Below, one piece after another: positions 27,621-52,097 of a stretch of 64,000 bases of DNA. The position numbers and the translations under genes were made by a program. Positions within the stretch are counted from its first letter, which is position 1, and the number at the start of each line of letters is the position of its first letter. The notes under the pieces were generated by a model that worked only from the letters and a program-made list of their open reading frames with translations, was not told the origin of the DNA and did not search any database. Origin of the DNA: Flavipsychrobacter stenotrophus (GTDB lineage Bacteria > Bacteroidota > Bacteroidia > Chitinophagales > Chitinophagaceae); assembly GCF_002954265.1 (NCBI RefSeq), contig NZ_PPSL01000009.1:1-64000 (forward strand), written 5' to 3'.

Positions 27621-27688
27621 AGTTTAATTGATCTATAAAGCTAAAAAATACATCGCTATCTTTTTTTGTCATTTTTAACACTTTGACA

Positions 27689-27701
27689 ATAGTATTACTA
27701 T
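27689..27701. promoter_or_regulatory. Operator candidate at the exporter operon
   Basis: ATAGTA-T-TACTAT is a perfect inverted repeat containing TATTACTAT. It lies 20 bases upstream of the -7 motif, over the expected -33 region, so binding would block RNA polymerase. The same core occurs upstream of icd and of the TetR gene. Confidence 0.55.
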
Positions 27702-27721
27702 CTAAAAAAGCAGTATTTATG

Positions 27722-27745: not shown

Positions 27746-29422
27746 ATGGCAGAGAAGCGAATGAGCACATTAGTGAAACTTCTTGAGGTATTAAAATTTG
27801 AAAAATCTGAAATTTCATCCATATATTTCTATGCGATAATAGCAGGAGTAGTGCAATTATCATTACCGTTGGGAATACAGTCAATTATAAGTTTTGTACT
27901 TGGTGGCACTATTTCCACGTCAATGATATTACTCATAGCACTAGTGATAATAGGTGTTTTGGTGGCGGGGTTGCTTCAGGTTAATCAAATGAAGTTGATT
28001 GAAAAAATACAACAACAACTCTTTGTAAGGTACGCATTCAAATATGCAGATACAATTCCTAAATTAAACCTGCAAGATGTTGACAACTATTACCTGCCGG
28101 AGCTGGTCAATCGTTTTTTCGACACCGTATCGTTACAAAAAGGCATATCAAAAATCTTGCTTGACATTCCAGCCGCGTCAATTCAAATAATTTTCGGTCT
28201 AGTGCTGCTCTCGTTCTATCATCCGGTATTTATTTTTTTCGGATTACTGCTGCTGGCTGTACTGTATCTCATTTTAGTAACAACCGGAAATAAAGGCTTA
28301 CAAACAAGTCTGGAAGAAAGTAACTACAAATATAAAGTTGCGGGGTATTTACAGGAGATTGCAAGAGTCATTACCACTTTCAAATTCTCACGAGATAGTT
28401 CTTTGCATATCAATAAGACTGACGATTATGTCTCGGGATACCTCGAATCAAGAACATCGCACTTCAAAATACTGCTTTTTCAATATTGGACATTAATCGT
28501 TTTTAAGCTGTTGATCATTTCAGCGATGCTGATTGTTGGCGCTATTCTACTTGTAGATCAGCAAATAAATGTTGGACAATTTATCGCATCCGAGATAGTT
28601 ATTCTCATGATCATAAGCTCGGTGGAAAAAATGATAGTTAGCCTTGATAATATATATGATGTGCTTACTTCTGTAGAGAAGATCAACAAATTATTAGAGA
28701 AACCTAAAGAAAAAGTGGGTAATCACCAATTAACAAATGGCAACGCCGGGTTCGCCATCGAGGTCAAGGACGTATGTTTTGGATACAGTAGTGATAGACT
28801 GATATTGAAAAATTTATCGTTTAATATACCTGCGGGTAGTAAGGTATGTATAGTGGGTGCTCACAGTGCAGGCAAATCAACTCTTATAAGATTGTTAAGC
28901 GGGGCTTATCAAAACTTCGACGGAAGTATATTGATCAATAAGATTCCGATTGACACCTATGATATTCGTTCCATACGGGCAAACGTTGGTGTGCTATTGA
29001 GTATACAGGAGATATTTCAGGGAACAATAAAGGAAAACATTTGCATTGGTAACGATAGTATCACTTATGAGCAGATGAATCATTTGGCTGAAATAACCGG
29101 TTTGAAACAATTTGTGAATAGCCATAAAGAGGGTTATGAATTTGAAATAAAACCCATTGGCAACCACCTACCCGATAAAATAGTAAAGAAGGTTTTGCTT
29201 GTAAGAGCACTTATACATAACCCACAGTTGTTGCTGCTTGAAGAGCCGTGGTTGGGCCTTGAAGAGCAATATGCTAAGAAAATACAGACGCACATTTTGG
29301 AGCAATTGAATGATAAGACAATTATTGTCGTCACAAATGATGCAGCCTTCGCTGAAAAATGCAATTTGATAATCGAGATGGATAAAGGCGCTGTTAAATC
29401 AATAAAAACAAACAATCTATGA
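27746..29422 (+). CDS. ABC exporter, fused membrane and ATPase domains
   Basis: A 558-residue half-transporter of the HlyB/type I secretion class without a peptidase domain. Six hydrophobic segments span residues about 25-310. The nucleotide-binding domain starts near 335. Walker A is intact (GAHSAGKST, 371-379) and a Q-loop Gln is present in SIQEIF. The family signature LSGGQ is replaced by LPDKI, the Walker B Asp by Glu (LLLLEEP, 495-501) and the H-loop His by Asn (VVTND). ATP turnover may therefore be altered. It should form a homodimer in the inner membrane with the HlyD adaptor (4-base overlap) and the TolC protein downstream to export a substrate that cannot be inferred. The TATTACTAT operator at its promoter suggests TetR control. 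Confidence 0.9.
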   Translation: MAEKRMSTLVKLLEVLKFEKSEISSIYFYAIIAGVVQLSLPLGIQSIISFVLGGTISTSMILLIALVIIGVLVAGLLQVNQMKLIEKIQQQLFVRYAFKYADTIPKLNLQDVDNYYLPELVNRFFDTVSLQKGISKILLDIPAASIQIIFGLVLLSFYHPVFIFFGLLLLAVLYLILVTTGNKGLQTSLEESNYKYKVAGYLQEIARVITTFKFSRDSSLHINKTDDYVSGYLESRTSHFKILLFQYWTLIVFKLLIISAMLIVGAILLVDQQINVGQFIASEIVILMIISSVEKMIVSLDNIYDVLTSVEKINKLLEKPKEKVGNHQLTNGNAGFAIEVKDVCFGYSSDRLILKNLSFNIPAGSKVCIVGAHSAGKSTLIRLLSGAYQNFDGSILINKIPIDTYDIRSIRANVGVLLSIQEIFQGTIKENICIGNDSITYEQMNHLAEITGLKQFVNSHKEGYEFEIKPIGNHLPDKIVKKVLLVRALIHNPQLLLLEEPWLGLEEQYAKKIQTHILEQLNDKTIIVVTNDAAFAEKCNLIIEMDKGAVKSIKTNNL

Positions 29423-30726
29423 GAGAGATAAAAGAAACTATAGAGCGGGAAGTAACAAACACTAAGTTTCGGTCATTTGATCTTGTTTATAGGATTGGTG
29501 TGAAAAATCATGTGCGATACTGGTTGATAGCTGCCTTGGTATCACTTATTATCATACTCTTCTTACCATGGACTCAAAACATACGAGCGAAAGGTGCGAT
29601 CACTACATTGAGGCAGGAGCAACGCCCGCAGGAATTAAATTCGATCATTCCCGGTCGCATTATTAAATGGTACGTTAAGGAGGGGGATATAGTGCAGGCA
29701 GGAGATACAATAGCCCAGCTTGCAGAAATAAAAGATAATTACCTTGATCCAGAACTATTGAACAGAACAAAAGAGCAGATCAATGCAAAAAAATCGAGCG
29801 TAGGTTTTTATGGAGATAAGGTAGCTGCTACTGATGCGCAGATAACAGCGATGCAGCAAGTATTGATATTAAAATTGAAGCAATTATCGCTAAAAGTGGT
29901 AGCCGACAGTTTTGAGGCGGTATCCGCCGCTAATGATATGAGAATTGCTGAAGTGCAATTTCGCCGGCAAAAAATAATGAGGGATAGCGGCTTGTCGTCT
30001 CTTGTGCAACTGGAGCAGCGTAACCAATATTATCAGAGTGCTGTGGCTAAGAAAACGAGTGCTGAAATGAAATTCTTCAATACTAAAACTGAACTGATTC
30101 AGGCTCAGGCGGAGTTTCTGGAAAAAAAATCAAAAGCCCAGGGCGAAAAAGCAGCAGCACAAAGTGAAATATCTAATAGCACAGCAGATGTTGCTAAACT
30201 GAGTAATCAGTACGAAAACTACAGGATAAGGAACGGTATGTACTACCTAATTGCCCCACAAAGTGGGCAAATAGTGCAAGCCAATAAATCGGGACTGAAT
30301 GAAATACTGAAGGAAGGAGAAAAAATAGCAGAGATCGTTCCGTTACAAATAGACCATGCGGTTGAAATTTATGTACGACCTGTGGATCTTCCCTTGTTAT
30401 CAAAAGGTCAAAAGGTGCGCTTCCTTTTCGACGGATACCCCGCTATCGTATTTAGCGGCTGGCCTAAGGCTTCTTATGGTATTTTTAGTGGTGAAATTGC
30501 AGTAATTGAAAGCTCTGTTAGCAGCAATGGAAAATTCAGGATACTTGTGGGAGAAGATAAATCTTATAGACCGTGGCCAAAGACGCTAATGCTTGGCACC
30601 GGTGCATCTGCCATAGCACTTCTCAAAGATGTACCCGTTTGGTATGAATTGTGGCGAAATATTAATGGGTTCCCTCCTGAATATTACCAAACAAAAGAAA
30701 AAAGCAATGATAAAGGAAAGAAGTAA
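29419..30726 (+). CDS. HlyD-family periplasmic adaptor
   Basis: A 435-residue membrane fusion protein. It has a short cytosolic N terminus, one transmembrane segment (about residues 34-52, YWLIAALVSLIIILFLPW), a lipoyl-like half motif (IIPGRIIKWYVKEGDIVQAGD, about 72-92, broken here at 20 residues), a long coiled-coil hairpin (about 115-265), the second lipoyl half (YLIAPQSGQIVQAN) and a C-terminal beta domain. It links the ABC exporter to the outer-membrane TolC channel. Its start overlaps the exporter stop by ATGA and its end overlaps the next gene, so the three genes are translationally coupled. Confidence 0.92.
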   Translation: MREIKETIEREVTNTKFRSFDLVYRIGVKNHVRYWLIAALVSLIIILFLPWTQNIRAKGAITTLRQEQRPQELNSIIPGRIIKWYVKEGDIVQAGDTIAQLAEIKDNYLDPELLNRTKEQINAKKSSVGFYGDKVAATDAQITAMQQVLILKLKQLSLKVVADSFEAVSAANDMRIAEVQFRRQKIMRDSGLSSLVQLEQRNQYYQSAVAKKTSAEMKFFNTKTELIQAQAEFLEKKSKAQGEKAAAQSEISNSTADVAKLSNQYENYRIRNGMYYLIAPQSGQIVQANKSGLNEILKEGEKIAEIVPLQIDHAVEIYVRPVDLPLLSKGQKVRFLFDGYPAIVFSGWPKASYGIFSGEIAVIESSVSSNGKFRILVGEDKSYRPWPKTLMLGTGASAIALLKDVPVWYELWRNINGFPPEYYQTKEKSNDKGKK

Positions 30727-32113
30727 ATATTTGCTTGTTTTGGTATCTGTTTTGCTTTCTGTTACCTGCATGGCCGGCGATAGTACGCATCATGTGTTAA
30801 CCAAAGACGATTTTATCAATATTGTAAAGCAGTACCATCCTATTGCTAAACAAGCCGATTTGCAAGTAGAGCGGGCAACGGCTAACGTACAGCAATCTCG
30901 TGGTGTGTTTGATCCCGAAATAGGCACTACGCTTGACAGAAAGACATTCGATGGCAAACTATATTATAGTTATTTTAAACCGGAACTGACAATACCTACC
31001 TGGTACGGAATAGATTTAAAAGCGGGGGTAGAAGAAATTGTTGGGAGCAGAGTTTCTCCGGAATCTACTTTGGGGCAAACAAGTTATATAGGTGTGAAGG
31101 TGCCTGCTAATCAATTGTTATTTGATAAACGCAGGGCAACGCTCAGGCAGGCACAGGCGTTGCAACAACAAACTGCCGAGGAAAGAAAACTTGCAGTTAA
31201 TAACCTTTTGTATGATGGACTTGCCGCTTATTGGAACTGGGTCGAAAAATACTGTAGCTATAGAATAATTTCAAGTGCTGTAGCTGTTGGGGAAGAAAGG
31301 GTACGATTCGTCAAGTTAGAATTTGAGCAGGGTCTGCGCCCCGCTATTGACACTGTAGAGGCGATAACTCAGCTGCAGACATTCTCCTTTCAGGAAAGTG
31401 TTATGCAGCTAGCGTTCCGTAACGCAGGAATGGAATTGTCGAACTATCTGTGGCTGGAAAATAATTCGCCTGCTGAATGGTCAGATATGATTTTACCGGA
31501 CACAACCGATTTTGATAAAGCCGCTACTAGTATACCCGACCTTAATGCACTGCTTTCTGCTTTAGACATGCATCCTAAATTGCGGTCTATCAACTACAAA
31601 ATGGACATACTCGAAATCGATAAGAGGTTGAAAGCACAGTCGTTGATGCCAAAGCTCAGTTTGAGTGGAAATATTCTGAGTAAAGGTTACAACTACCCGC
31701 AAGAATTAAATTTGCCTTTACTGGAAAATAATCATAAAGTAGGCTTTAGTTTTGCAATGCCATTATTCTTAAGAGACGCCAGGGGGGCATACAGTGCGGC
31801 TAAACTAAAAATATTTGAGACGGATCTTGATAGAAACAACACAAGACTACAAATTGAAAACAAGACAAGAAGTTATTACAACGAGCTACTGGCTGTAAGG
31901 CAGCAACTCAATATAATGACCAGCACAAACACTAATTTTATTAAGCTATACCAGGGCGAACGGCTAAAATTCGAAACCGGAGAAAGTTCTCTGTTCTTGC
32001 TTAATGCACGGCAAAGTAAGGTGCTGGAGACTGCACAAAAACTAATTGAGTTGAAAGCTAAGTGGCAAAAAGCATATGTTAGTCTACTTTGGGCTTCGGC
32101 TACGCTTTATTAA
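30707..32113 (+). CDS. TolC-family outer membrane efflux protein
   Basis: About 468 residues, starting at ATG 30707 inside the end of the HlyD gene. Earlier in-frame codons belong to the HlyD gene, and only this start gives a proper signal peptide (MIKERSKYLLVLVSVLLSVT, cleavage near MAG). Two internally repeated helical hairpins (about 30-240 and 265-468) follow the TolC pattern, with many Gln/Ala-rich heptads. It forms the trimeric outer-membrane exit duct of the exporter. The gene ends 2 bases before the convergent tetR stop codon. Confidence 0.9.
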   Translation: MIKERSKYLLVLVSVLLSVTCMAGDSTHHVLTKDDFINIVKQYHPIAKQADLQVERATANVQQSRGVFDPEIGTTLDRKTFDGKLYYSYFKPELTIPTWYGIDLKAGVEEIVGSRVSPESTLGQTSYIGVKVPANQLLFDKRRATLRQAQALQQQTAEERKLAVNNLLYDGLAAYWNWVEKYCSYRIISSAVAVGEERVRFVKLEFEQGLRPAIDTVEAITQLQTFSFQESVMQLAFRNAGMELSNYLWLENNSPAEWSDMILPDTTDFDKAATSIPDLNALLSALDMHPKLRSINYKMDILEIDKRLKAQSLMPKLSLSGNILSKGYNYPQELNLPLLENNHKVGFSFAMPLFLRDARGAYSAAKLKIFETDLDRNNTRLQIENKTRSYYNELLAVRQQLNIMTSTNTNFIKLYQGERLKFETGESSLFLLNARQSKVLETAQKLIELKAKWQKAYVSLLWASATLY

Positions 32114-32115
32114 AA

Positions 32116-32802
32116 TTACTTCTTTTTTACGGCGTCCAGCATACTATATATCATGTGACTAAGATAGTGTACTACGATATTAGTGTCTTTAACATTTCCA
32201 AAATCAGTTAGGCGTGGCAGGTGATCCTTGAAATATATCTGTCTGTGAGCTGTTTCTATTAGTGTGCTGGCTAAAGAGTGAGGATAAGGGTATCCGGGCT
32301 TATACTCTAGAAATATTTCCGCTATTCTATGACATAGATCTTTATATGGTTTAAACAACATGGCCTTATTATCTTCAGTTACATGTTTAGTAAGATAAGA
32401 TTTATCTCCCTCAGATATAATGATCTTTTGCAGCACATTTTTATTAATATGCTCTAATGCAAATTCGTCCTTTTCCTGAGACGTGAGTAATTTTATAACA
32501 GCATCAATTTTTTGTTTGCTGTTGCTTATATTGTTGGTGCTAAATACAAGCTGGTATTCCAACCACGTCCAAAACCATGTAGTTATGTAGGTGAGTAGTC
32601 TATGTTTATTTTCAAAATACCTATAAATGCTGGCTTCAGTTGTGCCTACCCTTACAGCAAGTTTCTTGAATGTGAAATCTTCGAAGCCCAACTCATAGAT
32701 CATTTCAATACCATGCCTTATAATGCCTTTACCCAATTCTGATGTCTCAGGATCCCGTAAATATAACTTGTGATTCATCTTTATTTGAAGTTGCACTTCC
32801 AT
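32116..32802 (-). CDS. TetR-family transcriptional regulator
   Basis: About 229 residues. The N-terminal helix-turn-helix reads FTFKKLAVRVGTTEASIYRY after GKGIIRHGIEMIYELGFEDF, a standard TetR DNA-binding domain. The C-terminal ligand/dimer domain has no recognisable specificity. I chose the ATG at 32802 (MEVQLQIKM) or the one at 32778 (MNHKLYL), because the longer frame to 32907 would run across a -7 motif (32826-32833) and two operator-like sites. It is the last gene of the icd-sbtA run and also has its own promoter. TATTACTAT-type sites at its own promoter, at icd and at the exporter operon suggest that it represses all three (inference). Confidence 0.88.
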   Translation of the reverse strand: MEVQLQIKMNHKLYLRDPETSELGKGIIRHGIEMIYELGFEDFTFKKLAVRVGTTEASIYRYFENKHRLLTYITTWFWTWLEYQLVFSTNNISNSKQKIDAVIKLLTSQEKDEFALEHINKNVLQKIIISEGDKSYLTKHVTEDNKAMLFKPYKDLCHRIAEIFLEYKPGYPYPHSLASTLIETAHRQIYFKDHLPRLTDFGNVKDTNIVVHYLSHMIYSMLDAVKKK

Positions 32803-32815
32803 AATAGTAATAGTA
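32801..32815. promoter_or_regulatory. Operator candidate a at tetR
   Basis: ATAATAGTAATAGTA contains ATAGTAATA (the reverse of TATTACTAT) and lies between the predicted transcription start and the ATG at 32802. That position allows autorepression. Confidence 0.45.
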
Positions 32816-32825
32816 TTTGCTGAAG

Positions 32826-32833
32826 CAAAGTTA
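32826..32833 (-). promoter_or_regulatory. -7 motif of tetR
   Basis: Read leftwards, TAACTTTG exactly fits TAnnTTTG, 24 bases before the ATG at 32802. Confidence 0.5.
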
Positions 32834-32883
32834 GCATTTAAGATTGATTCAGTTTTATGAATAATATTTTTTTGCAGGTTGAC

Positions 32884-32894
32884 GATAGTAATAC
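32884..32894. promoter_or_regulatory. Operator candidate b at tetR
   Basis: GATAGTAATAC (reverse GTATTACTATC) matches 11 bases of the exporter-operon site. It lies about 50 bases upstream of the tetR -7 motif, between sbtA and tetR. Confidence 0.45.
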
Positions 32895-32911
32895 AATCAT
32901 TTTGCAATTAA

Positions 32912-33874
32912 TTAAAACGATTGGATGACCATCCAATATAATGGCAGGCCAATAGTAATATTTAAGGGGAAAGTTAGCCCTAATGCCATTGGAATATATA
33001 GACCGGGGTCTGCGTCCGGAGCTGCTTGCTTCATGGCTGCCGGAACGGCAATGTAAGATGCGCTAGCGGCCAGAATTGCCAATAACAGCCTATTACCGGG
33101 ATGGATACCTAAAAAGTGAGTTATTATGATGGACATTAAACCGTTAACTATGGGAATTACTATTGCAAAAAGTGTTACAAACCAGCCGTAATTTTTGAAG
33201 GCAGAGAACCGTCTGGCAGCTACCATCCCCATTTCTAAAAGAAAGATGGCCAAAAAGCCTTTAAATATATCTGTGGTAAATGGTTTGATGCCTTCAGCTC
33301 CTTTCACATCTGAAATGATTCCTATTACTAAACTACCAACGATCATAAAAACAGACCCGTTGGTAAGGGATTCGTGAACTATTCGGCCCATGCTATGATT
33401 GTTGCCTGTGTGCGCCCCATATTTTCGCATTAACATGACACCTATTATTATTGCCGGTGCTTCCATTAATGCCATTGAAGCAACCATGTGTCCTCCATAG
33501 TTCACCTTCAAACTATCTAAGAACAGTGTAGCTGTTACGAAAGTTACAGCACTCACAGAGCCATATGTAGCAGCTATTGCACCAGCATTTTCTATGCTTA
33601 ATTTTTTCTTTAGCATAAAGAAAGTATACAAAGGAACTACGGTGGCAAGTGATATCGACAATAGTAATGTAACAACAATTTCTCTATTTAAACCGCTATG
33701 AGCTAGTTCCTGGCCACCTTTAAAGCCAATTGAAAATAAAAGATATAAGGATATAAATTTCGAAGTAGATGCCGGTATTTCAAGGTCACTTTTCACTAGA
33801 GAAGCTAATACACCGAGGGCGAAAAATAACAATGTAGGATTGGTAAGGTTGTTGATCAATAGGTTATAATTCAT
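32912..33874 (-). CDS. sbtA: Sodium-dependent bicarbonate transporter (SbtA/DUF897 family)
   Basis: A 320-residue inner-membrane permease with about ten transmembrane segments and the conserved family stretches LYLLFSIGFKGG (near residue 45) and LAASASYIAVPAAMKQAAPD (about 265-285). Known SbtA proteins import bicarbonate with sodium at high affinity. Length is close to the non-cyanobacterial members. Its start overlaps the pyrC stop by ATGA, so it is translated as part of the same operon as purK, tsaC and pyrC, which depend directly or indirectly on bicarbonate. No SbtB (PII-like) gene is next to it. Confidence 0.9.
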   Translation of the reverse strand: MNYNLLINNLTNPTLLFFALGVLASLVKSDLEIPASTSKFISLYLLFSIGFKGGQELAHSGLNREIVVTLLLSISLATVVPLYTFFMLKKKLSIENAGAIAATYGSVSAVTFVTATLFLDSLKVNYGGHMVASMALMEAPAIIIGVMLMRKYGAHTGNNHSMGRIVHESLTNGSVFMIVGSLVIGIISDVKGAEGIKPFTTDIFKGFLAIFLLEMGMVAARRFSAFKNYGWFVTLFAIVIPIVNGLMSIIITHFLGIHPGNRLLLAILAASASYIAVPAAMKQAAPDADPGLYIPMALGLTFPLNITIGLPLYWMVIQSF

Positions 33875-35241
33875 ATTTGCGATTTTTTAGCGTTTTGCTT
33901 CAATGACTTAAATGTTAGTTGCTTTCCCATTATTGACTCATCAAAGATTTCCTGGTGATACACGATATGCCCGTTTACAATAGTCGTACAAACTGCAGAG
34001 CTGAAAGTGTACCCCATAAATGGCGACCAGCCACATTTGTACAAAATATTAGCGCTGTCAACTTTCCATTTTTGATTCATGTCCACTATTACCAAGTCTG
34101 CGTAGTAACCTTTTCGTATAAACCCTCGTTTTTCTATGCCAAATAGTATTGCCGGGTTGTGGCACATCTTTTCCACTACTTTCTCTATAGATGTTGCCTT
34201 TTGTTTTACCAGCTCTAGCATAGCAACGAGAGCATGTTGCACCATTGGTCCGCCGCTAGGTGAGCTTATATAATTTTGTTGTTTTTCTGTTTGCGAATGA
34301 GGCGCATGATCTGTGCTAACTATGTCGATTCTGTCATCATTTAGGGCTCGCATCAATTCATTTCTGTCCTCCTTCCTTTTTATTGAAGGATTCCACTTAA
34401 TATTTACTCCCAATGTTTTATAGTCATCATCACAAAACCACAAATGATGTATACATACCTCAGAGGTCACCCTCTTCTTACTTATATGCACATCATTACT
34501 AAATAACATGGCTTCTTTAGCCGTTGATAAATGGAGTACGTGTAAACGTGTGTTGAACTTTATTGCCATCCCCAATACCCGAAAGGTAGCCTGGTAGCAA
34601 GCATCTTCACTTCTTATACGGGAATGTTCTTCTATAGGTATGTTGTCGCCATATCGCTCACGCGCAATCGTCAAATTGTCCTCAACTATCGATTCGTCTT
34701 CACAATGCAAAGAAATAATACTATCTGTGGACGCAAATAATTTTTGCATATAATCAGAATTGTTGGACAGCATATTGCCAGTTCCTGAAAAATATAGTCC
34801 GTCATCAGTTATTGCACCCACGGTGCCATTGTCCACATTCATCAGCTCATTATAATTCCCGGTATTAATGCCTAGATAGAACGAATAGTTGGCCAATGAT
34901 TTTTCAGATGCAATTCTTTCTTTTTCTTTTATCAGTTCACTAGTCAGCGTGTTTGGTATTGTGTTGGGCATTTCTATGAAAGAAGTAATGCCGCCAGCCA
35001 CTGCTGCTTTTGCCTCTGTGTAAATATCTCCTTTATGAGTAAGCCCCGGTTCCCTGAAATGAACATGAGTATCAATTAAGCCTGGTAGAATGTATTTACC
35101 TGCACCGTCTATTACAATACTATCTACCGCTCCATCAAGTTGGCCTATATCTTGTATAATACCATTTTGGATTAATATATCCGCTACGAAAACTTCACCT
35201 TCATTGACAATGTTAGCTTGTTTTATAACTATTGACTTCAT
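33871..35241 (-). CDS. pyrC: Dihydroorotase
   Basis: A 456-residue metal-dependent amidohydrolase that interconverts N-carbamoyl-aspartate and dihydroorotate in pyrimidine synthesis. Metal-site residues are visible: HVHFREPG (about residue 60-67), Asp in ITDDGLYFSG, His in SLHCEDE and in RLHVLHLST, and the catalytic Asp in STDHAPHS (about 308). The Asp in the DDG loop in place of a carboxylated Lys points to the class I type. It begins one base after the tsaC/sua5 stop. It is unusual to find it away from other pyrimidine genes and inside a purine/carbon-transport run. Confidence 0.92.
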   Translation of the reverse strand: MKSIVIKQANIVNEGEVFVADILIQNGIIQDIGQLDGAVDSIVIDGAGKYILPGLIDTHVHFREPGLTHKGDIYTEAKAAVAGGITSFIEMPNTIPNTLTSELIKEKERIASEKSLANYSFYLGINTGNYNELMNVDNGTVGAITDDGLYFSGTGNMLSNNSDYMQKLFASTDSIISLHCEDESIVEDNLTIARERYGDNIPIEEHSRIRSEDACYQATFRVLGMAIKFNTRLHVLHLSTAKEAMLFSNDVHISKKRVTSEVCIHHLWFCDDDYKTLGVNIKWNPSIKRKEDRNELMRALNDDRIDIVSTDHAPHSQTEKQQNYISSPSGGPMVQHALVAMLELVKQKATSIEKVVEKMCHNPAILFGIEKRGFIRKGYYADLVIVDMNQKWKVDSANILYKCGWSPFMGYTFSSAVCTTIVNGHIVYHQEIFDESIMGKQLTFKSLKQNAKKSQI

Positions 35242-35242
35242 G

Positions 35243-36208
35243 TTATACGGTTGATGCTCGGTTTAACCGATCGTTTATTGATTTTCCAATTCCCTCATCT
35301 GGCAACTTGTTCACTATGATTAAGTCATAACCAGCATTGTCCATTGTATGCATTGCCGAGTATAAATTATAGGCAATCACGCTCATGTTAGTTGTTTTTC
35401 CCAAAACTATCTGATGTTGTTCCTGAAGTTGTGGACTATAAGAGTTATAGGTTAAGAGTCCAATTTTTTTGCCCGCATATATATTCAGTGCCTGCTCTAC
35501 GTTTTGGGTTAGCAGTAGCGGCGTACGTGGCGAGTAGTGTTTTTTAAGCATTCCTGGTGCTAAGGTTTTCGTTGTGTCTGAATTGATGGTTACCGGCCCC
35601 ACAACATCCTCTATCTCGGAAATAGTTATAGATCCCAACCTGTATATCACAGGCATCTCGTTTTTTAAGCCAATTATTGTTGATTCTATTCCTGCTGTGC
35701 ATTTTCCTCCGTCAAGTATAAAGGGAATTTTACCGCTCATTTGGCTATATACATGTTTTGCAGTTGTGGGGCTGATAAAGCCGAAAGGGTTAGCACTTGG
35801 AGCCGCCAATGGATAGTCAAGTAGCTCTAATAATTTATTTGCGACAGGGTGGGCGGGAAATCTGATCGCTACATTAGGTAGTCCCGATGTAACTATATCC
35901 GGAACAAACTTCTTTTTGGGAAGTAAAAGTGTTAGCGGGCCGGGCATGAATTTTTCAATAAGCAACTCTGCTTTTTCGTTTATTTCATTTGCTACTTCAT
36001 ATATCCAATTCTTGCTGGCAACATGTATGATCAGTGGGTTAGTAGTCGGCCTGCCTTTCGCATGGTAAACCTTATTGATTGCTTTTTCGCTAAATGCATT
36101 GGCTGCGAGGCCATAAACTGTTTCCGTAGGAATTGCTACTATTTCTTCTTTGTCCAGCAATTGCTTTGCACGTAAAATATCAGTTCCTATTTCAGTTTCA
36201 AATATCAT
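35243..36208 (-). CDS. tsaC: Threonylcarbamoyl-AMP synthase (TsaC/Sua5)
   Basis: A 321-residue protein with a YrdC/TsaC domain (about 10-200) and a C-terminal Sua5 domain. The nucleotide/bicarbonate site motifs are PTETVYGLAANA, KGRPTTNPL and SANPFGFISPTTA, and the Sua5 linker is PGMLKKHYSPRTPLLL. The enzyme makes threonylcarbamoyl-AMP from threonine, ATP and bicarbonate, the first step of the tRNA t6A modification. It is essential in most bacteria, so this may be either the only copy or a condition-specific paralogue. It is embedded in the operon, 15 bases after the upstream gene. Confidence 0.93.
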   Translation of the reverse strand: MIFETEIGTDILRAKQLLDKEEIVAIPTETVYGLAANAFSEKAINKVYHAKGRPTTNPLIIHVASKNWIYEVANEINEKAELLIEKFMPGPLTLLLPKKKFVPDIVTSGLPNVAIRFPAHPVANKLLELLDYPLAAPSANPFGFISPTTAKHVYSQMSGKIPFILDGGKCTAGIESTIIGLKNEMPVIYRLGSITISEIEDVVGPVTINSDTTKTLAPGMLKKHYSPRTPLLLTQNVEQALNIYAGKKIGLLTYNSYSPQLQEQHQIVLGKTTNMSVIAYNLYSAMHTMDNAGYDLIIVNKLPDEGIGKSINDRLNRASTV

Positions 36209-36223
36209 ATCTGGAATTTTCTA

Positions 36224-37081
36224 TCAAGGGTTGCAGTAATCACAATACATAGGTTCCTCGGATTCTTTGCCATTAGGGTATTTTATCTCGGCTCTATGTT
36301 CACATTTCTGACACTCGTATACAAACGAGTAAGTACTTCTAGTTGGTGATGTGCATAAGCTACAGGGCAATCCTGCTCTGACAAGCTTTACGTCAAAGCC
36401 CGGCAACGAACAATTCGGGCATGTGTTTATAATTGTTTTAACTAGTTTATTGGTAGCCTCCTGTATTACTTTTTGTCGGGTTGGGTTATGCATTGCCCTC
36501 ATATCAGTCTCTATAAATACAGCTCCATATTTCCCAAAAAACTTTGCGAATTTTTCCTGAAGATCGTTCCATGAGGATATACCCTTTGCTATATCTTCAT
36601 TATTGTTTTTTGATTTGCGGATGATTAGGCTGTGAGACGGGAAAAGCGACGCCTCAGCAAATTTTTTAGCACTATCCCAATCTGTAAAGACGTCACCTCC
36701 AAAGTTTGTATTAGTGCTAATTAACCTGGCCTTAATTTCAACATTATTTTTCAAATCAAGCAGTACAAGTATTTCATCGTCTGCGGGAGCAAAAAACATT
36801 GACGGGTGAGGTCCAAATGAGCCTTCACTTGCAATTGCGAGATCGCTTCCGGTCAATTCACAGGCGGCAGTACATTTTATTCTTCCGGCTTCCACCGGGT
36901 CTACATTTCTCTCTATTTCCCCACTAAAGGTTCCATAAGCATCTGTGTCAAAATTTGCTGGAACAACAATCTCTAGTCCCAATTCACTTTTCAGAATAGG
37001 GCCAATGATGGCTTCTTTACCATGCATCGTGGCAATAACAATTTTTCGCCCGGCGAAGTATTGCCTGATAATATCGTTCAT
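36224..37081 (-). CDS. Conserved protein of unknown function (DUF6671-like)
   Basis: A 285-residue cytosolic protein. The N-terminal 200 residues resemble what I recall as the DUF6671 family (FAGRKIVIATMHGKE, then ASEGSFGPHPSMFFAPADDE). The function is unknown. The C terminus has two Cys pairs, CPNC/CSLC (about 225-250) and CQKC/CDYC (about 260-283), that probably form zinc ribbons. It is tightly packed between the 87-residue gene (1-base gap) and tsaC, so it is co-expressed with bicarbonate-using enzymes. The family name is from memory and should be treated as tentative. Confidence 0.8.
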   Translation of the reverse strand: MNDIIRQYFAGRKIVIATMHGKEAIIGPILKSELGLEIVVPANFDTDAYGTFSGEIERNVDPVEAGRIKCTAACELTGSDLAIASEGSFGPHPSMFFAPADDEILVLLDLKNNVEIKARLISTNTNFGGDVFTDWDSAKKFAEASLFPSHSLIIRKSKNNNEDIAKGISSWNDLQEKFAKFFGKYGAVFIETDMRAMHNPTRQKVIQEATNKLVKTIINTCPNCSLPGFDVKLVRAGLPCSLCTSPTRSTYSFVYECQKCEHRAEIKYPNGKESEEPMYCDYCNP

Positions 37082-37082
37082 A

Positions 37083-37346
37083 CTAATCCAGCAATGGTTC
37101 TACAACAATTATAGCATGAAGATTTACTCTCTTGTCGCCGATCTTATCCAGCGCTTTTTTCAGCTCTTCTTCTACTATAGTTCTCCTTTCTTCATCGTAT
37201 TGCAAATAGTCTTCGCTGATGGTGTCCCCTTTGAAACTTTTTAGCTCTATCTGAATTTTATCTTTTATCAAATTCATGATCAAGCCTTTCGCGTGTTCCG
37301 ACTGAAAGCATCCCTGTATCATTACAATCTCGCTTTGTTGTACCAT
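37083..37346 (-). CDS. Unknown small operon protein, 87 residues
   Basis: A soluble alpha/beta small protein (IELKSFKGD, then a helix RRTIVEEELKKALDKIG and a final beta strand NLHAIIVVEPLL) with no recognised family. It is flanked by purE (32 bases) and the DUF6671-like gene (1 base) on the same strand, so it is almost certainly translated. No motif allows a functional call. Confidence 0.65.
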   Translation of the reverse strand: MVQQSEIVMIQGCFQSEHAKGLIMNLIKDKIQIELKSFKGDTISEDYLQYDEERRTIVEEELKKALDKIGDKRVNLHAIIVVEPLLD

Positions 37347-37378
37347 ATATTGCGTTTGTTGGGTAAAGTGAATTGTTG

Positions 37379-37876
37379 CTATGCTTTTAGACTAACATCT
37401 GTTTGCTGGCTTTTAACCTTCTCGACATTTTTTAATTTTGCTTCCTTTAGCATTGCCATAAGCCGGCCATCATGTGTAGCCAGTATTTGTACTGCAAGTA
37501 GGCCTGCATTATGAGCTCCATTAACTGCAACAGTTGCCACAGGGATATCATTAGGCATCTGTACAATGGACAACAACGAATCCCAACCGTCCAATGAATT
37601 ACTTGATTTTACCGGCACACCTATCACAGGTATAGTGGTAATAGCGGCCACCATCCCTGGCAGATGTGCTGAGCCGCCTGCCCCTGCTATAATTACCTTA
37701 AGGCCTCTGTCAAGCGCTGTGCTGGCATAGTCAAACATAATTTGCGGACTACGATGTGCAGAGATAACTGTGAACTCATAAGGGATCTTATATTGATCCA
37801 AAATGTCTGCCGCTGGTTTCATGATAGCAGCGTCAGAGCTACTACCCATTATTATTCCTATCATCGGTGTTTCCAT
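37379..37876 (-). CDS. purE: N5-carboxyaminoimidazole ribonucleotide mutase
   Basis: A 165-residue class I PurE that moves the carboxylate of N5-CAIR to give CAIR in purine synthesis. Motifs: [12 protein letters not shown] (10-21), the ISAHRSP loop (about 41-47) with the catalytic His, and [13 protein letters not shown] (about 68-80). It acts directly after PurK and lies 4 bases downstream of it. The normal length and all active-site motifs suggest a functional enzyme. Confidence 0.95.
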
Positions 37877-37880
37877 TTTT

Positions 37881-38990
37881 TTAGTTTAGAATGTTTTTAA
37901 TAGCGGCTATTTGCGCATGTACCCCATCAATATTTTCTTCGGTAATCGTTATGTGTCCTATCTTCCTTCCAATCTTACTATTGGCTTTCCCGTAATAATG
38001 AAGGTGCATAGTAGGCTTACTTACTATAGCTGACAGGTCGAGCTGTTTGCCGGTTTCAATCAGGTTAACAAGTCCTGCCTTGTAGTTTAGCCGGGTATCG
38101 CCAAGTGGGAAACCCGTTATTGCCCTTATCAGCTGTTCGTATTGTGACGTAGGGCATGCTTCTATTGTGTGGTGACCGCTGTTATGAGGTCTTGGTGCTA
38201 TTTCATTAACGAGCAATATGTCATTATCTGTGATAAACATTTCTATAGCTATAATACCTACCAAAGACATCTCTGCAGCAATTTTTATGGCAATTTCATA
38301 TGCTTGATTAGAGATCTCTGATTCCAGATTGGCAGGGCAAATCTGATAATCAAGTAGGTGCTTTTCGGGATCAAACACCATCAGAGTTGGCTCATAGCAT
38401 TCAATCGCGCCATCTTCGCCTCTTGCTACTATCAACGATATTTCCTGTTTTATATTCATCTTTTCCTCCAGAATTGCCGGCCCATCGAAAGCGTTTTCTA
38501 TGTCTGTCTCAGAATATAACATCATTACACCCTTACCATCATAGCCATTGCGCCTCATCTTCAAACATGCCGGTAGTTTTGAGGCATTATTGTACAATTC
38601 CTCCTTATTCGTAATTGATACGTACGGTACAACAGGAATATTATGGTGTTTCAGGAATTCCTTCTGATCTTGTTTATCCTGAATGGTAGCTATCAACTCA
38701 GGAGAGGGATGAATTTTAACTCCTTTATCTCGCAAGTATCTTAACGCTTCAGTATTGACAGCTTCTTTTTCTATTGTAACAATATCGCATTGTTTTCCGA
38801 ATGCCACTACATCCTCATAGTTATTAGGGTCTCCGCAAACAAAAGAGTTTGTGTACCTGGCGGCTGGGGCATTAGTATCTTTGTCTAAAACCGAAATATC
38901 TAATCCATAGTCTATTGCTGATCGTATAAGCATAGCACCAAGTTGTCCGCCGCCCAGTATGCCTATACGCACTTTCTCGTTATGTATCAT
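37881..38990 (-). CDS. purK: N5-carboxyaminoimidazole ribonucleotide synthase
   Basis: A 369-residue ATP-grasp enzyme that joins AIR with bicarbonate using ATP. The N-terminal GGGQLGAML and the ATP-grasp motifs [12 protein letters not shown] (about 142-153) and [15 protein letters not shown] (about 260-274) are present. Its dependence on bicarbonate fits the presence of sbtA in the same operon. It starts 6 bases after icd ends. Confidence 0.95.
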
Positions 38991-38996
38991 AGTTAA

Positions 38997-40448
38997 TTAT
39001 TGTCCTTGAGCTAAAGAATATGATTTAACACCTCCATACATCATCAGCCACTCAATGGAGCATATTTTTATTGACCTTGATATCTCCTTTGCGAAATCTA
39101 AAATTTCATCTGCAGTTAAAGACGGCGCACCGGGTTCCCTTTCTATTCTTACTCTGAATTGATCTACACAGTCAGTAAGCAGTGAACCATCCGGATATAC
39201 TTGCGTTCCTCTATTGCTGATCATGATAAGTGACATGCTCTCCGGCAACTTGTCTTTGAATTTGTGTGCTATAACCTTTGGTTGTTCGGTACTTTCTACA
39301 AAAAAGTCCGCTCCATTCACTATAGCCTCACCCTTGGTAGGTGTATGAAGAATCTGATAGACTTCCCTTTTTTCCTGAGCTTTTGTTAGGCTAAGATTAT
39401 TTATGTCTGTCCTATTAGTGATTTGAAGGTTCTTTATTATCTGTTGAGAAAATTCGGTTGTATTCAGTTGTTTATCTTTGCCAATGCCAAAATCTATAGT
39501 GTGGTAACCCTGTTGTAAAGTATTGTATAGCGAGTTTTCAATTGCTATGGCTTCATGTGTCATTCCAAGGTGGCGAAGCATCATACAACTACTTATCAAT
39601 AAAGCGGTTGGGTTGGCAATGTTTTTACCTGCAATATCTGGGGCTGACCCGTGAACTGCCTCGAAAATGCATACGTTATCGCCGATATTAGCAGACGGAG
39701 CAAACCCCAACCCACCTACAAGACCCGCACAAAGGTCTGAAAGTATATCACCCTGTAGGTTAGGAAGAACGATAACCTCAAAATCATTTGGTCTGGATAC
39801 CAGTTTCATTGCAAGATCATCGACTATTATGTCCGAGGCCTTTATTTCAGGATAGTCTTTTGCTACTTCGTAAAAGCATTCCAGAAAAAGCCCGTCCGTG
39901 ATCTTCATGATGTTTGCCTTGTGCCCGCAGGTGACTTTTTTAGCACCCTTCTTGCGGGCCATTTCAAATGTGTACTTATGTACTTGTATAGATCCGGGTC
40001 GGGTGATAAATCTGCGGCAAAGTGCTACATCTTCTGTTAGCATATGCTCTATTCCCCCGTAAGTATCTTCGATATTTTCCCTTACCATAGTAATATCGAT
40101 TGGGATGCCGGCCTTGGAGAAAACTGTTTCCACGCCATTAAGCGATTTGAAAACACGTTTGTTGGCATATGTACTCCACATTTTTCGTGCGGTTACATTA
40201 ATACTTTTCATGCCTTTTCCTTTGGGCGTTTCCATCGGGCCTTTGAGCAATACTCCTAACTGCTCAATTGTATTCTTTGCCTCAGGAGTCATTCCTGATG
40301 AATGGCCTTTTTCGTACCAGGTTTTGCCCATGTCTACCACTTCGAAATCTAGCGGAGCACCAGTAGCTCCAATAATCGATAGGGTTGCGTCCATTATTTC
40401 AGGACCTATTCCATCTCCTTTGGCAACAGCTATTCTTATTTTTTGCAT
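38997..40448 (-). CDS. icd: NADP-type isocitrate dehydrogenase with C-terminal extension
   Basis: A 483-residue decarboxylating dehydrogenase. The N-terminal 335 residues carry the isopropylmalate/isocitrate dehydrogenase fold (KGDGIGPEIM, the substrate Arg/Ser loop near VRENIEDTYGG and the cofactor region EAVHGSAPDIAGK). The extra 140 C-terminal residues are as in the long Thermus-type enzymes. It converts isocitrate to 2-oxoglutarate and CO2 and can run in the carboxylating direction. It is the first gene of the operon, with a -7 motif (40493-40500) and an operator-like inverted repeat (40513-40534) upstream. Being grouped with bicarbonate users rather than TCA genes is unusual. Confidence 0.93.
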   Translation of the reverse strand: MQKIRIAVAKGDGIGPEIMDATLSIIGATGAPLDFEVVDMGKTWYEKGHSSGMTPEAKNTIEQLGVLLKGPMETPKGKGMKSINVTARKMWSTYANKRVFKSLNGVETVFSKAGIPIDITMVRENIEDTYGGIEHMLTEDVALCRRFITRPGSIQVHKYTFEMARKKGAKKVTCGHKANIMKITDGLFLECFYEVAKDYPEIKASDIIVDDLAMKLVSRPNDFEVIVLPNLQGDILSDLCAGLVGGLGFAPSANIGDNVCIFEAVHGSAPDIAGKNIANPTALLISSCMMLRHLGMTHEAIAIENSLYNTLQQGYHTIDFGIGKDKQLNTTEFSQQIIKNLQITNRTDINNLSLTKAQEKREVYQILHTPTKGEAIVNGADFFVESTEQPKVIAHKFKDKLPESMSLIMISNRGTQVYPDGSLLTDCVDQFRVRIEREPGAPSLTADEILDFAKEISRSIKICSIEWLMMYGGVKSYSLAQGQ

Positions 40449-40492: not shown

Positions 40493-40534
40493 CAAAAGTA
40501 ATAAAACTATTTGTAATAGTAGTATTACTATTAC
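40493..40534 (-). promoter_or_regulatory. icd operon promoter with operator
   Basis: Read leftwards, TACTTTTG (40493-40500) fits the -7 consensus, 45 bases before the icd ATG. GTAATAGTA-gtat-TACTATTAC (40513-40534) is a perfect 9-bp inverted repeat that includes TATTACTAT and sits over the -33 region. Confidence 0.55.
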
Positions 40535-40735
40535 AGATTGCAAATAATATTTTACAATGATTGTATAGCAACTTTCTATTTTAGCAATACAATATTTGGA
40601 GCAGCTTCTGATTGTCATAGCCATAGACCTATACCTGTGGAAATCGTGCATTTAATAAATGGAATGCCTGTGCCTTTTGACAATTTTTAATCGGAGCTTT
40701 GATTTCTGTAGTTAAAAAACATATAAACACATCTA

Positions 40736-41465: not shown

Positions 41466-43700
41466 CTACCAATTGGTATGATCCCAAGTAAGATCACGAT
41501 TCAGTTGGTATTTCAGATTTTCTTTGGGGTCGTGGCATATCATATGCACCCATCCATTTCCAAATAGCTTTTGCAGAATCTGTTGTTGCATAATTATCTC
41601 ACCGATCTTTGTTTTAGGTGCATAAACCACCACTGTTAGCCTAATTGGATTGTGATATGGTTCGTCATCAGATTTAAAGACCGACTGTAAAGGAAGTCCG
41701 TTCATAAGGTCACTGGCGTTGCCCTGCATGATGCCTATTTTTCCTGTAATATTCTTAGTTACCTTACTTCCTCCGCCGAATGCAACATTGTCAAGAGTTG
41801 AGAAGAAATACTGAGCGTTTATCCATTGAGCCACCACCATAGGTGCTGTTAATATGGTGGTGAGCGATGAACTATCAATGTCTTTTTCCCACTCATAAGA
41901 GTGCAGAAATGATCTGCCTTCAAGGTTGATAGCCTTGGTAAGCCACCTGGGCCCTACAATAAATGATGCATTTCTGGCCAGGCCCCATTCAGGTCGCACC
42001 TGGGCCCAGTCTTTGGCACGCAATGCGGTAGCCTTACTTGCTTCCCGCTCATTTGTCATAACACCCATTTGCCTGCTTCGCCATAAACTATTTTCATTTC
42101 TGGTAAATTCAAGGCTTTGTTTAAGCGCCTGTACTTGTGCTGCAAAACTATCTGACATCTCCTCATTATATATCTCTACTTCATCGGTAGTTGTATTGTG
42201 TTCAGCAGCCAGGAAAATTGTATCATCAGGAATAGCTATTCCCAACTTGCTAATCTCACTTCGTACCTCGTGGTCATTCAGTATGCTGGCAAGAATTCGG
42301 GCGTTAGGCGCTCCATGCCGCCCACCGCATGCCCCGCAATCGAGGGCTGTTGCATACGCATTATTCTCCGTTGTACTGCCATGACCGCAGAAAACAACCA
42401 GCGGTGCAAAATTTTCTGTAAGTCCCATCATTTTTAAAGCGCCTATACCAAAGGATACCTGCTGCCGATGTGGTATGCTGCTAATATCTGGTGTTACTGA
42501 ATAATCTGGTGCTAAAGATTTCCGGATTGCAGATTGTATTGATGCAGCATTATCAGGTAGCAAACTCCTTACGCTCATCCAGACACCACTAGCCAGTCCC
42601 AGGGTTTCTACAAGGGCAAAGGGGGTAGAAAAATTATATTTAAGTGACTGATAAAGCTTTTTTATCCCCTTAAGTCTTTTATATCCATCATCACAGGATT
42701 GATGTGAGCAGTTGGGTTTTTCTTCGACCGTATAGGCAGGCTTTAGCAGAACCGGGCAAGACGCATACGATGCTCCAGTCACACTATTACCTATGGAAAC
42801 AGGTAGCCCAAAGAAACCAGCAAAGCCAAAAGTCTCGTAGTTGCCTTGAGACTCTAAAGCACGCCTGAAAGGCTCCGAACGAACATCGATACAAAATACC
42901 AGCTGCGCCTCCGCTCTTGTCTCTTTTCGTACCTGTTGTTTAGCTTCAAGTTGTTTTAGTAAGGCTTGTCTGTATGTGGTTTCATTGTCGACAACGTTAT
43001 TATATATGCTTGAAATATCAGTAATCTCTACAGCTCTTCTGTGCCAAATGAGCAACTCCTTAGCGTTTGGCCATATCAGGTAGGTTAATACTATCCTGAA
43101 TGCTAGGTATTCAGTTTGCGTAACTGGGTGTGGATGTTTAGCATCCTGTGCATCAGCCCAATTGGCACGGTATTGAATATGAGCGGCCCATCCCGATAGG
43201 GTTGTCAGCATCAGTGTGAGAAATTGCTGCTGATCCGTATACTGAATACCGAGCAATGACAGTGTTTCTGAAACAATAGCTTCAGGATTATCGGGCAGCG
43301 TCTTAAGCCAATGTATTTTCTGTTTATCATTTCCGATAATTTGTTGATCAAACTGTAGCAGCATTAACGTACTCCGTAAGAATCCCTTTTCCCTGAGCGG
43401 CATTGGGATAGTTGCTTGCCCGTCATCAAAGAAAGCTTGCAACCATTTTATACTTTCCCGATTTACATGCAGCAGATCAACAGGCATTTCCCGCTGTTGA
43501 AAGTATGCATTTGCATTTGTTAATCCGTCTTCGAACGTTAAATCCTCAAAGCCGGAAATGGGGTTCACTGCTATCAGGTTTTTAAGAGGCCAGAATGGTG
43601 CAATTTTTGACCAGCTCTTTGCTATGGCAGCATCAATTTGTTGACGGTCATTCACCGTTACACTCTTAGTTGGCATTTCCATGAATTCTGTTGTTTCCAT
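41466..43700 (-). CDS. dabA: DabA, inorganic-carbon pump subunit (DUF2309/UPF0753)
   Basis: A 744-residue cytosolic protein with a beta-carbonic-anhydrase-like zinc site that hydrates CO2 to bicarbonate in the DAB system. Expected ligand positions are visible: Cys270 and Asp272 in FCIDVR, His440 in CGHGST and Cys455 in DCGACGG. Length is slightly below the roughly 800 residues common in the family, but the termini look natural. It lies 20 bases downstream of dabB on the same strand, forming the two-gene dab operon. Together with SbtA in the neighbouring operon it indicates a dedicated carbon-uptake locus. Confidence 0.95.
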   Translation of the reverse strand: METTEFMEMPTKSVTVNDRQQIDAAIAKSWSKIAPFWPLKNLIAVNPISGFEDLTFEDGLTNANAYFQQREMPVDLLHVNRESIKWLQAFFDDGQATIPMPLREKGFLRSTLMLLQFDQQIIGNDKQKIHWLKTLPDNPEAIVSETLSLLGIQYTDQQQFLTLMLTTLSGWAAHIQYRANWADAQDAKHPHPVTQTEYLAFRIVLTYLIWPNAKELLIWHRRAVEITDISSIYNNVVDNETTYRQALLKQLEAKQQVRKETRAEAQLVFCIDVRSEPFRRALESQGNYETFGFAGFFGLPVSIGNSVTGASYASCPVLLKPAYTVEEKPNCSHQSCDDGYKRLKGIKKLYQSLKYNFSTPFALVETLGLASGVWMSVRSLLPDNAASIQSAIRKSLAPDYSVTPDISSIPHRQQVSFGIGALKMMGLTENFAPLVVFCGHGSTTENNAYATALDCGACGGRHGAPNARILASILNDHEVRSEISKLGIAIPDDTIFLAAEHNTTTDEVEIYNEEMSDSFAAQVQALKQSLEFTRNENSLWRSRQMGVMTNEREASKATALRAKDWAQVRPEWGLARNASFIVGPRWLTKAINLEGRSFLHSYEWEKDIDSSSLTTILTAPMVVAQWINAQYFFSTLDNVAFGGGSKVTKNITGKIGIMQGNASDLMNGLPLQSVFKSDDEPYHNPIRLTVVVYAPKTKIGEIIMQQQILQKLFGNGWVHMICHDPKENLKYQLNRDLTWDHTNW

Positions 43701-43720
43701 TACTTATGTTTTTAACCTCT

Positions 43721-50797: not shown

Positions 50798-50807
50798 CTC
50801 GTTTAAT

Positions 50808-52058: not shown

Positions 52059-52097
52059 AGTACTGCGTTTTATTTTGTTACAGATAATTGGCAATTT

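Follow-up and report, generated by a model that had tools for sequence, protein, structure and literature searches.

A conserved Bacteroidota operon joining an SbtA-family transporter to spare metabolic enzymes, with a predicted role in inorganic carbon scarcity

The cyanobacterial low-CO2 regulon governed by the LysR-type regulators CcmR and CmpR includes an SbtA-type transporter. Two further uptake systems, DabAB (DAC) for inorganic carbon and MpsAB for bicarbonate, have supply alone as their known role, without isozymes. In Zur-type regulons, which contain zinc-free paralogues, scarcity of a small cofactor induces paralogues that dispense with it. Type I dihydroorotases (Bacillus anthracis 3MPG and Aquifex) carry a DDG motif, with an aspartate at the place of the carboxylated lysine. 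Here we describe an operon that resembles each of these in part, found in a 64,000-nucleotide stretch (‘the window’; contig NZ_PPSL01000009.1) of Flavipsychrobacter stenotrophus, a bacterium related to lake Bacteroidota. As in the cyanobacterial regulon, an SbtA-type transporter is present, and a similar LysR regulator stands at 32 of 84 related loci; unlike that regulon, the operon carries isozymes for purines, pyrimidines and the tRNA modification N6-threonylcarbamoyladenosine (t6A), and the window copy uses a TetR regulator. The scarce item would be CO2 or bicarbonate rather than a metal, and the DDG-bearing PyrC belongs overall to the Bacteroidota PRK09236/2GWN family rather than to the type I enzymes. 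We consider it likely that this is a low-inorganic-carbon operon, in which uptake and CO2-sparing spare enzymes are derepressed in scarcity. No such operon was described in the literature searched (SbtA, bicarbonate transport, purK/pyrC paralogues), a search that lay outside most subscription journals.

The open reading frame list and family searches give the gene order icd-purK-purE-87aa-DUF6671-tsaC-pyrC-sbtA-tetR on the minus strand, with dabAB adjoining:

38997..40448, minus strand: isocitrate dehydrogenase (IDH), gene 1 of the operon and a third IDH type in the genome
37881..38990, minus strand: PurK, N5-carboxyaminoimidazole ribonucleotide (N5-CAIR) synthase using ATP and bicarbonate (family match)
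37379..37876, minus strand: PurE, class I-like N5-CAIR mutase (family match)
37083..37346, minus strand: 87-residue protein; its small, conserved family has no name and adjoins DUF6671 in 25 of 84 loci
36224..37081, minus strand: DUF6671 protein, the bait for locus retrieval (family match)
35243..36208, minus strand: TsaC/Sua5, threonylcarbamoyl-AMP synthase with a C-terminal domain and bicarbonate as substrate (family match)
33871..35241, minus strand: PyrC dihydroorotase, DDG replacing the carboxylated-lysine motif (PRK09236 match and alignment)
32912..33874, minus strand: SbtA-family sodium/bicarbonate symporter (Sbt_1 match)
32116..32802, minus strand: TetR regulator, start re-set from relatives

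The eight genes from IDH through SbtA share one strand, and their intergenic gaps are at most 32 bases. The gene calls of the initial annotation agree with the open reading frames and families, and its description of a compact operon with a TetR regulator and two unassigned proteins beside dabAB is borne out by gene order, strand and short gaps. The IDH is composed of an Iso_dh domain and a bacterial IDH C-terminal domain and scores 499.4 bits with NCBIfam PRK09222, short of the cut-off of 509; the homologue at locus L039 scores 791 bits. The TsaC/Sua5 protein has YrdC and Sua5 C-domains, PyrC matches dihydroorotase PRK09236 with 612 bits against a cut-off of 535, and SbtA matches Sbt_1 with E=7e-118, a family membership that suggests bicarbonate transport. 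The listed tetR reading frame begins at an upstream TTG, and six compared relatives begin at MEVQLQIKMN, which places the start at 32802 and leaves a gap of 109 bases from sbtA containing a promoter-like sequence of its own. For the 87-residue protein there was no Pfam match and no Foldseek match below E 0.1.

The operon enzymes are additional to the housekeeping ones and, by sequence, of a different kind. A look for second copies of icd, purK/E, pyrC and tsaC, which the initial annotation proposed, found them in the bacterium's own genome (G000): three PurE, two PurK, four PF00180 genes, three YrdC/Sua5-domain genes and, besides the operon gene, one more full-length PyrC. Two of the four PF00180 genes sit in operon copies, and both PurK genes are confined to two operon copies, with no other purK in the genome. 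The second operon copy (L081, contig 16) is shorter, with IDH, PurK, PurE, the 87-residue protein, DUF6671, SbtA and TetR at 82–94% identity to the window proteins; TsaC and PyrC were not found in it. The housekeeping PurE on contig 14 and the PyrC paralogue on contig 11 are 39% and 48% identical to their operon counterparts, two short TsaC-type proteins (contigs 12 and 21) are 22–29% identical over the shared part, and two further NADP-IDH types are encoded on contigs 11 and 13. An Amidase family search of the same genome gave no match. In the nearest named relative, a metagenome-assembled genome labelled Flavipsychrobacter stenotrophus (L001), eight operon proteins were found with 83–94% identity.

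The clearest sequence difference lies in PyrC. An alignment of PyrC copies from 26 genomes plus the neighbourhood loci falls into two distinct groups: those with a housekeeping role read (G/A)xK(I/V/L)FxGSSTG(N/D)(M/L)L, as does the Porphyromonas gingivalis 2GWN family, and DUF6671-linked copies read (G/A)x(S/T)DDG(L/I)Y. According to an excerpt of one source (PMC3880350), the equivalent lysine is carboxylated in the Escherichia coli and CAD dihydroorotases, and type I dihydroorotases have Asp153 where the carboxylated lysine stands elsewhere. The B. anthracis type I enzyme aligns its FTDDG with the DDG of the operon PyrC, which at the level of sequence has an aspartate motif replacing the carboxylated lysine, as in a type I-like metal site. 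The HxH motif and other metal ligands are kept in the window PyrC, and the remaining tested ligands are identical in all PyrC copies read whole. Overall the enzyme is nearer the PRK09236/2GWN family (best solved relative 2GWN, 2e-129) than type I (5e-54), so the change of motif took place inside that family. That DDG arose only once was not demonstrable, the tree requiring two changes and having a very long outgroup branch.

The DDG motif is closely tied to the presence of DUF6671. With loci repeating a gene removed beforehand, 17 DDG PyrC share a locus with DUF6671 and one (L094) does not; none of 25 Lys PyrC is linked, counting 24 plus that of L103, which escaped the scripted motif and was added separately (Fisher 7e-11 without L103, for counts that are not independent events because related sequences share ancestry). 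Among the 17, L054 is cut by a contig end, and in L022 the gene is on the opposite strand, beside DabAB and more than 6 kb away. Because flanks in the PyrC loci were short, up to ~9 kb on either side was fetched for the 25 Lys copies and L094 (L240 and L242 are short contigs). No DUF6671, SbtA, IDH, TsaC, PurE/K, Dab, CcmR-like or carbonic anhydrase gene was found around the 25 Lys PyrC within ~9 kb per side, less at contig ends, and no other gene of the set within the fetched ~9 kb flanks of L094. A DNA pattern for the motif matched 24 of 296 Bacteroidia genomes; seven were dropped because the match was not PyrC, which leaves DDG PyrC in at least 17 genomes, a minimum since the pattern is strict. 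A DUF6671 match is present in 14 of these 17 (13 full length) versus 40 of the 279 others (Fisher 4e-9, or 4e-8 for full-length matches only, with fragments in G177, G430 and G380 excluded).

The purine genes point in the same direction. In 39 genomes surveyed (own, genus, family and order), PurE scoring above 200 bits is accompanied by PurK in 27 of 27 cases, 25 above the cut-off and two (G020 and G035) at 310–315 bits against 318. Nine genomes have a lower-scoring PurE alone, and eight of them are PurK-less (G002, G011, G015, G016, G021, G024, G028 and G033; the G002 assembly is 70% complete, that of G028 80%). The best PurK-model matches in these eight reach at most 187 bits, and those in G011 and G028 are probably PurT, as candidates only. 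The ninth genome, G008, carries its PurK in a related operon (L222), adjacent to PurE and IDH, and PurE was not found in three of the 39 (G029, G032 and G037). Within the genus, IDH adjoins PurK in 10 of 11 loci, the exception (L090) being a 4-kb contig. The housekeeping PurE thus shares one class II-like trait, occurrence without PurK in eight of the nine genomes having its type alone, and for this reason it should require free CO2. Class I-like PurE without PurK occurs in CO2-rich archaea, for which high CO2 has been invoked (PMC3261824, in excerpt). When carbon is plentiful, PurE is able to carboxylate aminoimidazole ribonucleotide with CO2, and cyanobacterial purK mutants require high CO2 (both from an excerpt of PMC10880623). 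The housekeeping purine route should then be CO2-dependent, and the operon should add a route driven by ATP and bicarbonate.

For the t6A step, excerpted kinetic data on human YRDC give a bicarbonate Km of 13 mM, or 31 mM when the complete reaction is considered (PMC5951830), which makes the TsaC step plausibly bicarbonate-limited; the operon may encode a Sua5 form with a lower bicarbonate Km. The initial annotation had proposed that the cell raises the capacity of bicarbonate-limited steps. The Lys-to-Asp difference in PyrC and the added PurK route suggest that versions needing CO2 are replaced, and not that capacity alone is increased.

A scan of 84,980 species genomes gave 100 confirmed DUF6671 matches, of which the best 80, with four genus loci, made up 84 neighbourhoods (at most 83 distinct, L001 and L088 being very probably one contig). 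Within 6 kb of DUF6671 and always on the same strand, IDH is present in 29 loci, SbtA in 29, the small 87-residue family in 25, TsaC in 21, PyrC in 14, PurK in six and PurE in five; these are minima, because several contigs are short. The survey of gene order in Bacteroidota suggested by the initial annotation showed the order conserved in relatives, and the window's DUF6671-TsaC-PyrC-SbtA order recurs in L027. Cultured carriers of DUF6671 loci include Flavobacterium cyanobacteriorum (L005), Lacihabitans LS3-19 (L009) and Cloacibacterium rupense (L034). At L026 a β-carbonic anhydrase gene lies directly upstream of DUF6671, and DabAB adjoins not only the window operon but also L022, L038 and L043. 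Pfam assignments for 61 of 82 unlabelled run neighbours, each 100 residues or longer, gave 97 families, and the 25 of these that were listed included no recurrent carboxylase. Across 296 Bacteroidia, 37 of the 54 genomes that have a DUF6671 match also have SbtA, versus 43 of the 242 that lack one (Fisher 1e-12, kinship ignored). This class survey supersedes an earlier phylum survey that was too thin (DUF6671 in 7 of 148 genomes, SbtA in 44 of 148).

The regulators found at related loci provide a further connection to inorganic carbon. Of the 84 loci, 34 have a LysR gene close to DUF6671, on the opposite strand in 33, and 32 of the 34 are CcmR-like by similarity to the LysR of L034 or L084. These 32 are more than 50% identical to that of L034 over nearly the full length (L034 included), and 31 lie upstream. 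In comparison with solved structures, the best relative of the L034 and L084 regulators is CcmR (5y2v, a Rubisco operon regulator; 3.5e-56 and 4.7e-55) and the second best is CmpR (~5e-30). The best NCBIfam model for the L084 LysR is CbbR, under its cut-off. An excerpted study names 2-oxoglutarate and NADP+ as co-repressors of CcmR (PMC3401165); the former is the product of IDH and the latter its cofactor, a suggestion of how IDH could be tied to this control.

In the window's own lineage a TetR gene takes the place of the LysR, and control of the operon would differ. The sites concerned, together with the neighbouring transport genes, are:

40512..40535: palindrome TGTAATAGTA-N4-TACTATTACA, probably the site at which TetR controls the operon
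40493..40500, minus strand: TACTTTTG, -7-like promoter element conserved in aligned relatives
32803..32817: operator-like site directly 5' of tetR (core match)
27688..27702: operator-like site 5' of the exporter trio (core match)
27746..32113, plus strand: ABC transporter, HlyD-type and OEP exporter genes, sharing the operator-like site
41466..45064, minus strand: dabB-dabA, inorganic carbon uptake complex (DabA PF10070 and a DabB-like antiporter subunit)
45160..46011, plus strand: LysR regulator divergent from dabBA, with LrhA, not CcmR, as closest solved relative

The TACTTTTG element fits TAnnTTTG, which we take to be the Bacteroidota -7 consensus. The complete palindrome has no second match in the window with up to three mismatches. 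Its 15-base core, with at most one mismatch, occurs at three sites in the window (before the operon, tetR and the exporter trio), against 0.01 expected, and these three sites predict a TetR regulon with three transcripts, that of tetR itself among them. With at most two mismatches, the core is found before the operon, tetR and exporter in L001/L088, L083 and L086, before the operon and tetR in L081 (where the third place is beyond the stretch), before the exporter only in L002 and before the operon in L089; at this threshold there are also two extra sites without an evident role in the window (14766 and 63887) and two in L083. TetR control of dabBA was considered and set aside, there being no operator-like site there with at most one mismatch.

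An improbable alternative, though the best placed of those we weighed, is that the operon serves resistance or self-protection, with TetR sensing a toxin, the ABC/HlyD/OEP exporter removing it and the extra enzymes being insensitive copies of its targets. The operator-like palindrome common to exporter, tetR and operon is in keeping with such a role, as are the duplication of essential enzymes and the recurrence of two or all three of the exporter genes close to related operons at 15 loci (including L022, L029, L032 and L040–L069, from other families). However, it leaves SbtA, DabAB, the L026 β-carbonic anhydrase and the CcmR-like LysR unaccounted for, no exporter turned up at the remaining loci examined (whose flanks are unequal), and the duplicated enzymes are linked by CO2 chemistry, not by one inhibitor class. 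Marginally less probable still is an alkaline-pH response, in which SbtA would use sodium and the isozymes would operate at high pH. The high pH of blooms accompanies low CO2 (PMC4840274, in excerpt), but the confinement of PurK to the operon copies and the Lys-to-Asp difference indicate CO2 instead. We regard metal scarcity as more doubtful again. Zur-controlled PyrC paralogues offer a precedent for such a set, in which the DDG PyrC would use one zinc rather than two. In excerpts, the Aquifex type I dihydroorotase is described as mononuclear (PMC3880350) and two zinc ions are listed for 2GWN (PMC12524618); yet the B. anthracis type I enzyme has the same motif and two zinc ions (PMC3880350, same excerpt), DUF6671 retains eight invariant cysteines, and a metal-scarcity set would not be expected to contain bicarbonate transporters, PurK, TsaC or a zinc carbonic anhydrase. 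Chance grouping of housekeeping genes, each common by itself, is very unlikely given the extra copies, the same-strand linkage, the co-occurrence and the 25 housekeeping PyrC without these neighbours.

A response to scarce inorganic carbon remains the best reading, because the genes form one operon of extra copies, because much of the set is conserved with SbtA well outside the genus, and because a CcmR-like LysR stands at 32 of 84 DUF6671 loci. A member of a high-affinity inorganic carbon transporter family, as in a regulon of the CO2-concentrating mechanism type, is present in the unit itself as SbtA, with DabA (E=6e-219) beside it; dabBA is separated from the operon by a divergent lipocalin gene. 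We propose that the operon would be derepressed when CO2 or bicarbonate falls, for example in high-pH algal blooms. Microcystis blooms deplete CO2 and reach pH 10 (PMC4840274), a setting where such an operon would make sense. SbtA, with the adjoining dabAB, would increase bicarbonate uptake, and the spare enzymes would replace housekeeping versions that need much CO2. PurK and PurE would make 4-carboxy-5-aminoimidazole ribonucleotide from bicarbonate and ATP, not by direct addition of CO2, the Asp-motif dihydroorotase could sustain pyrimidine synthesis without a CO2-carboxylated lysine, and the Sua5-type enzyme would form threonylcarbamoyl-AMP at low bicarbonate. The switch is likely to be TetR acting on the promoter-spanning palindrome here, and a CcmR/CmpR-like LysR in many relatives. 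IDH may set the 2-oxoglutarate/NADP+ balance sensed by CcmR, or release CO2 inside the cell.

Several points weigh against this reading. Because the IDH reaction gives off CO2, a shortage of CO2 should not hold it back, and bicarbonate limitation explains neither DUF6671 nor the 87-residue protein; the exporter trio that shares the operator has no role in the model. The bicarbonate-scarcity response of the initial annotation is thus supported in part, by the SbtA linkage and the CcmR-like LysR, and leaves these four elements unexplained. The genome also encodes two β-carbonic anhydrases away from the operon, so the operon is no simple carbonic anhydrase stand-in. At least one such enzyme is present in 24 of 25 genomes searched, G039 (Flavobacterium cyanobacteriorum) being the one in which none was found; most of these cells can therefore convert CO2 and bicarbonate into one another, and the trigger must then be a shortage of total carbon. 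The window lacks control of the CcmR/CmpR type, having TetR in its place, and only 32 of 84 loci have a CcmR-like regulator. Many DUF6671 loci hold one or two genes of the set, TsaC, PyrC, IDH or SbtA often being absent, and 17 of the 54 Bacteroidia genomes with DUF6671 have no SbtA match. Outside the Bacteroidota, DUF6671 has no such neighbours at the 15 loci read, of which 14 are cyanobacterial and one (L066) is labelled Bacillus. For PyrC, lysine carboxylation in the Bacteroidota housekeeping enzymes is suggested by analogy with E. coli and CAD, no statement on 2GWN having been found. The metal site of the family is also unusual, because the first histidine of HxH is a histidine only in the window PyrC and a glutamine in 41 of 41 other copies, Lys and DDG alike. 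The housekeeping PurE is class I-like, not class II, in sequence, and its assignment to class II was rejected (5e-40 to Acetobacter aceti PurE versus 2e-8 to Treponema denticola). Expression and enzyme activities are predicted from sequence throughout.

Beyond this operon, and with somewhat more reserve, we favor the existence of a Bacteroidota CO2-scarcity regulon, under a CcmR-like LysR or TetR, that would swap CO2-dependent enzymes for CO2-sparing isozymes in the synthesis of purines, pyrimidines and t6A and have DUF6671 as a new core enzyme. The host bacterium is probably a heterotroph (Rubisco was outside the searches made), and CO2 is usually held never to be limiting for heterotrophs. 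If the proposal is right, aquatic Bacteroidota run short of CO2 frequently enough to retain spare enzymes for such times, the operon names CO2-limited steps of ordinary metabolism and gives a context for DUF6671, and a post-translational need for CO2, lysine carboxylation, has been evolved away.

DUF6671 contains many invariant polar residues in addition to its eight invariant cysteines. Its predicted model has a pLDDT of 95.8 and a Cys-rich C-terminal part. Foldseek gave weak but consistent matches to the YjjX/ITPase/Maf/HcgB superfamily of proteins resembling nucleotide pyrophosphatases and none below E 0.001, and because the fold matches are only weak we claim no function; house-cleaning of stalled purine intermediates would be a guess from the model. 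The family goes unmentioned in the literature searched, which again lay outside most subscription journals. In six Microcystis loci (L056, L058, L059, L061, L067 and L070), DUF6671 lies in another neighbourhood that these loci share. Two members of the 87-residue family stand in tandem in L016, L047 and L063. Elsewhere in the window, a 2752-residue reading frame (55709–63967, minus strand) lies near a resistance-nodulation-division (RND)/HlyD/OEP efflux set at 46812–52094.

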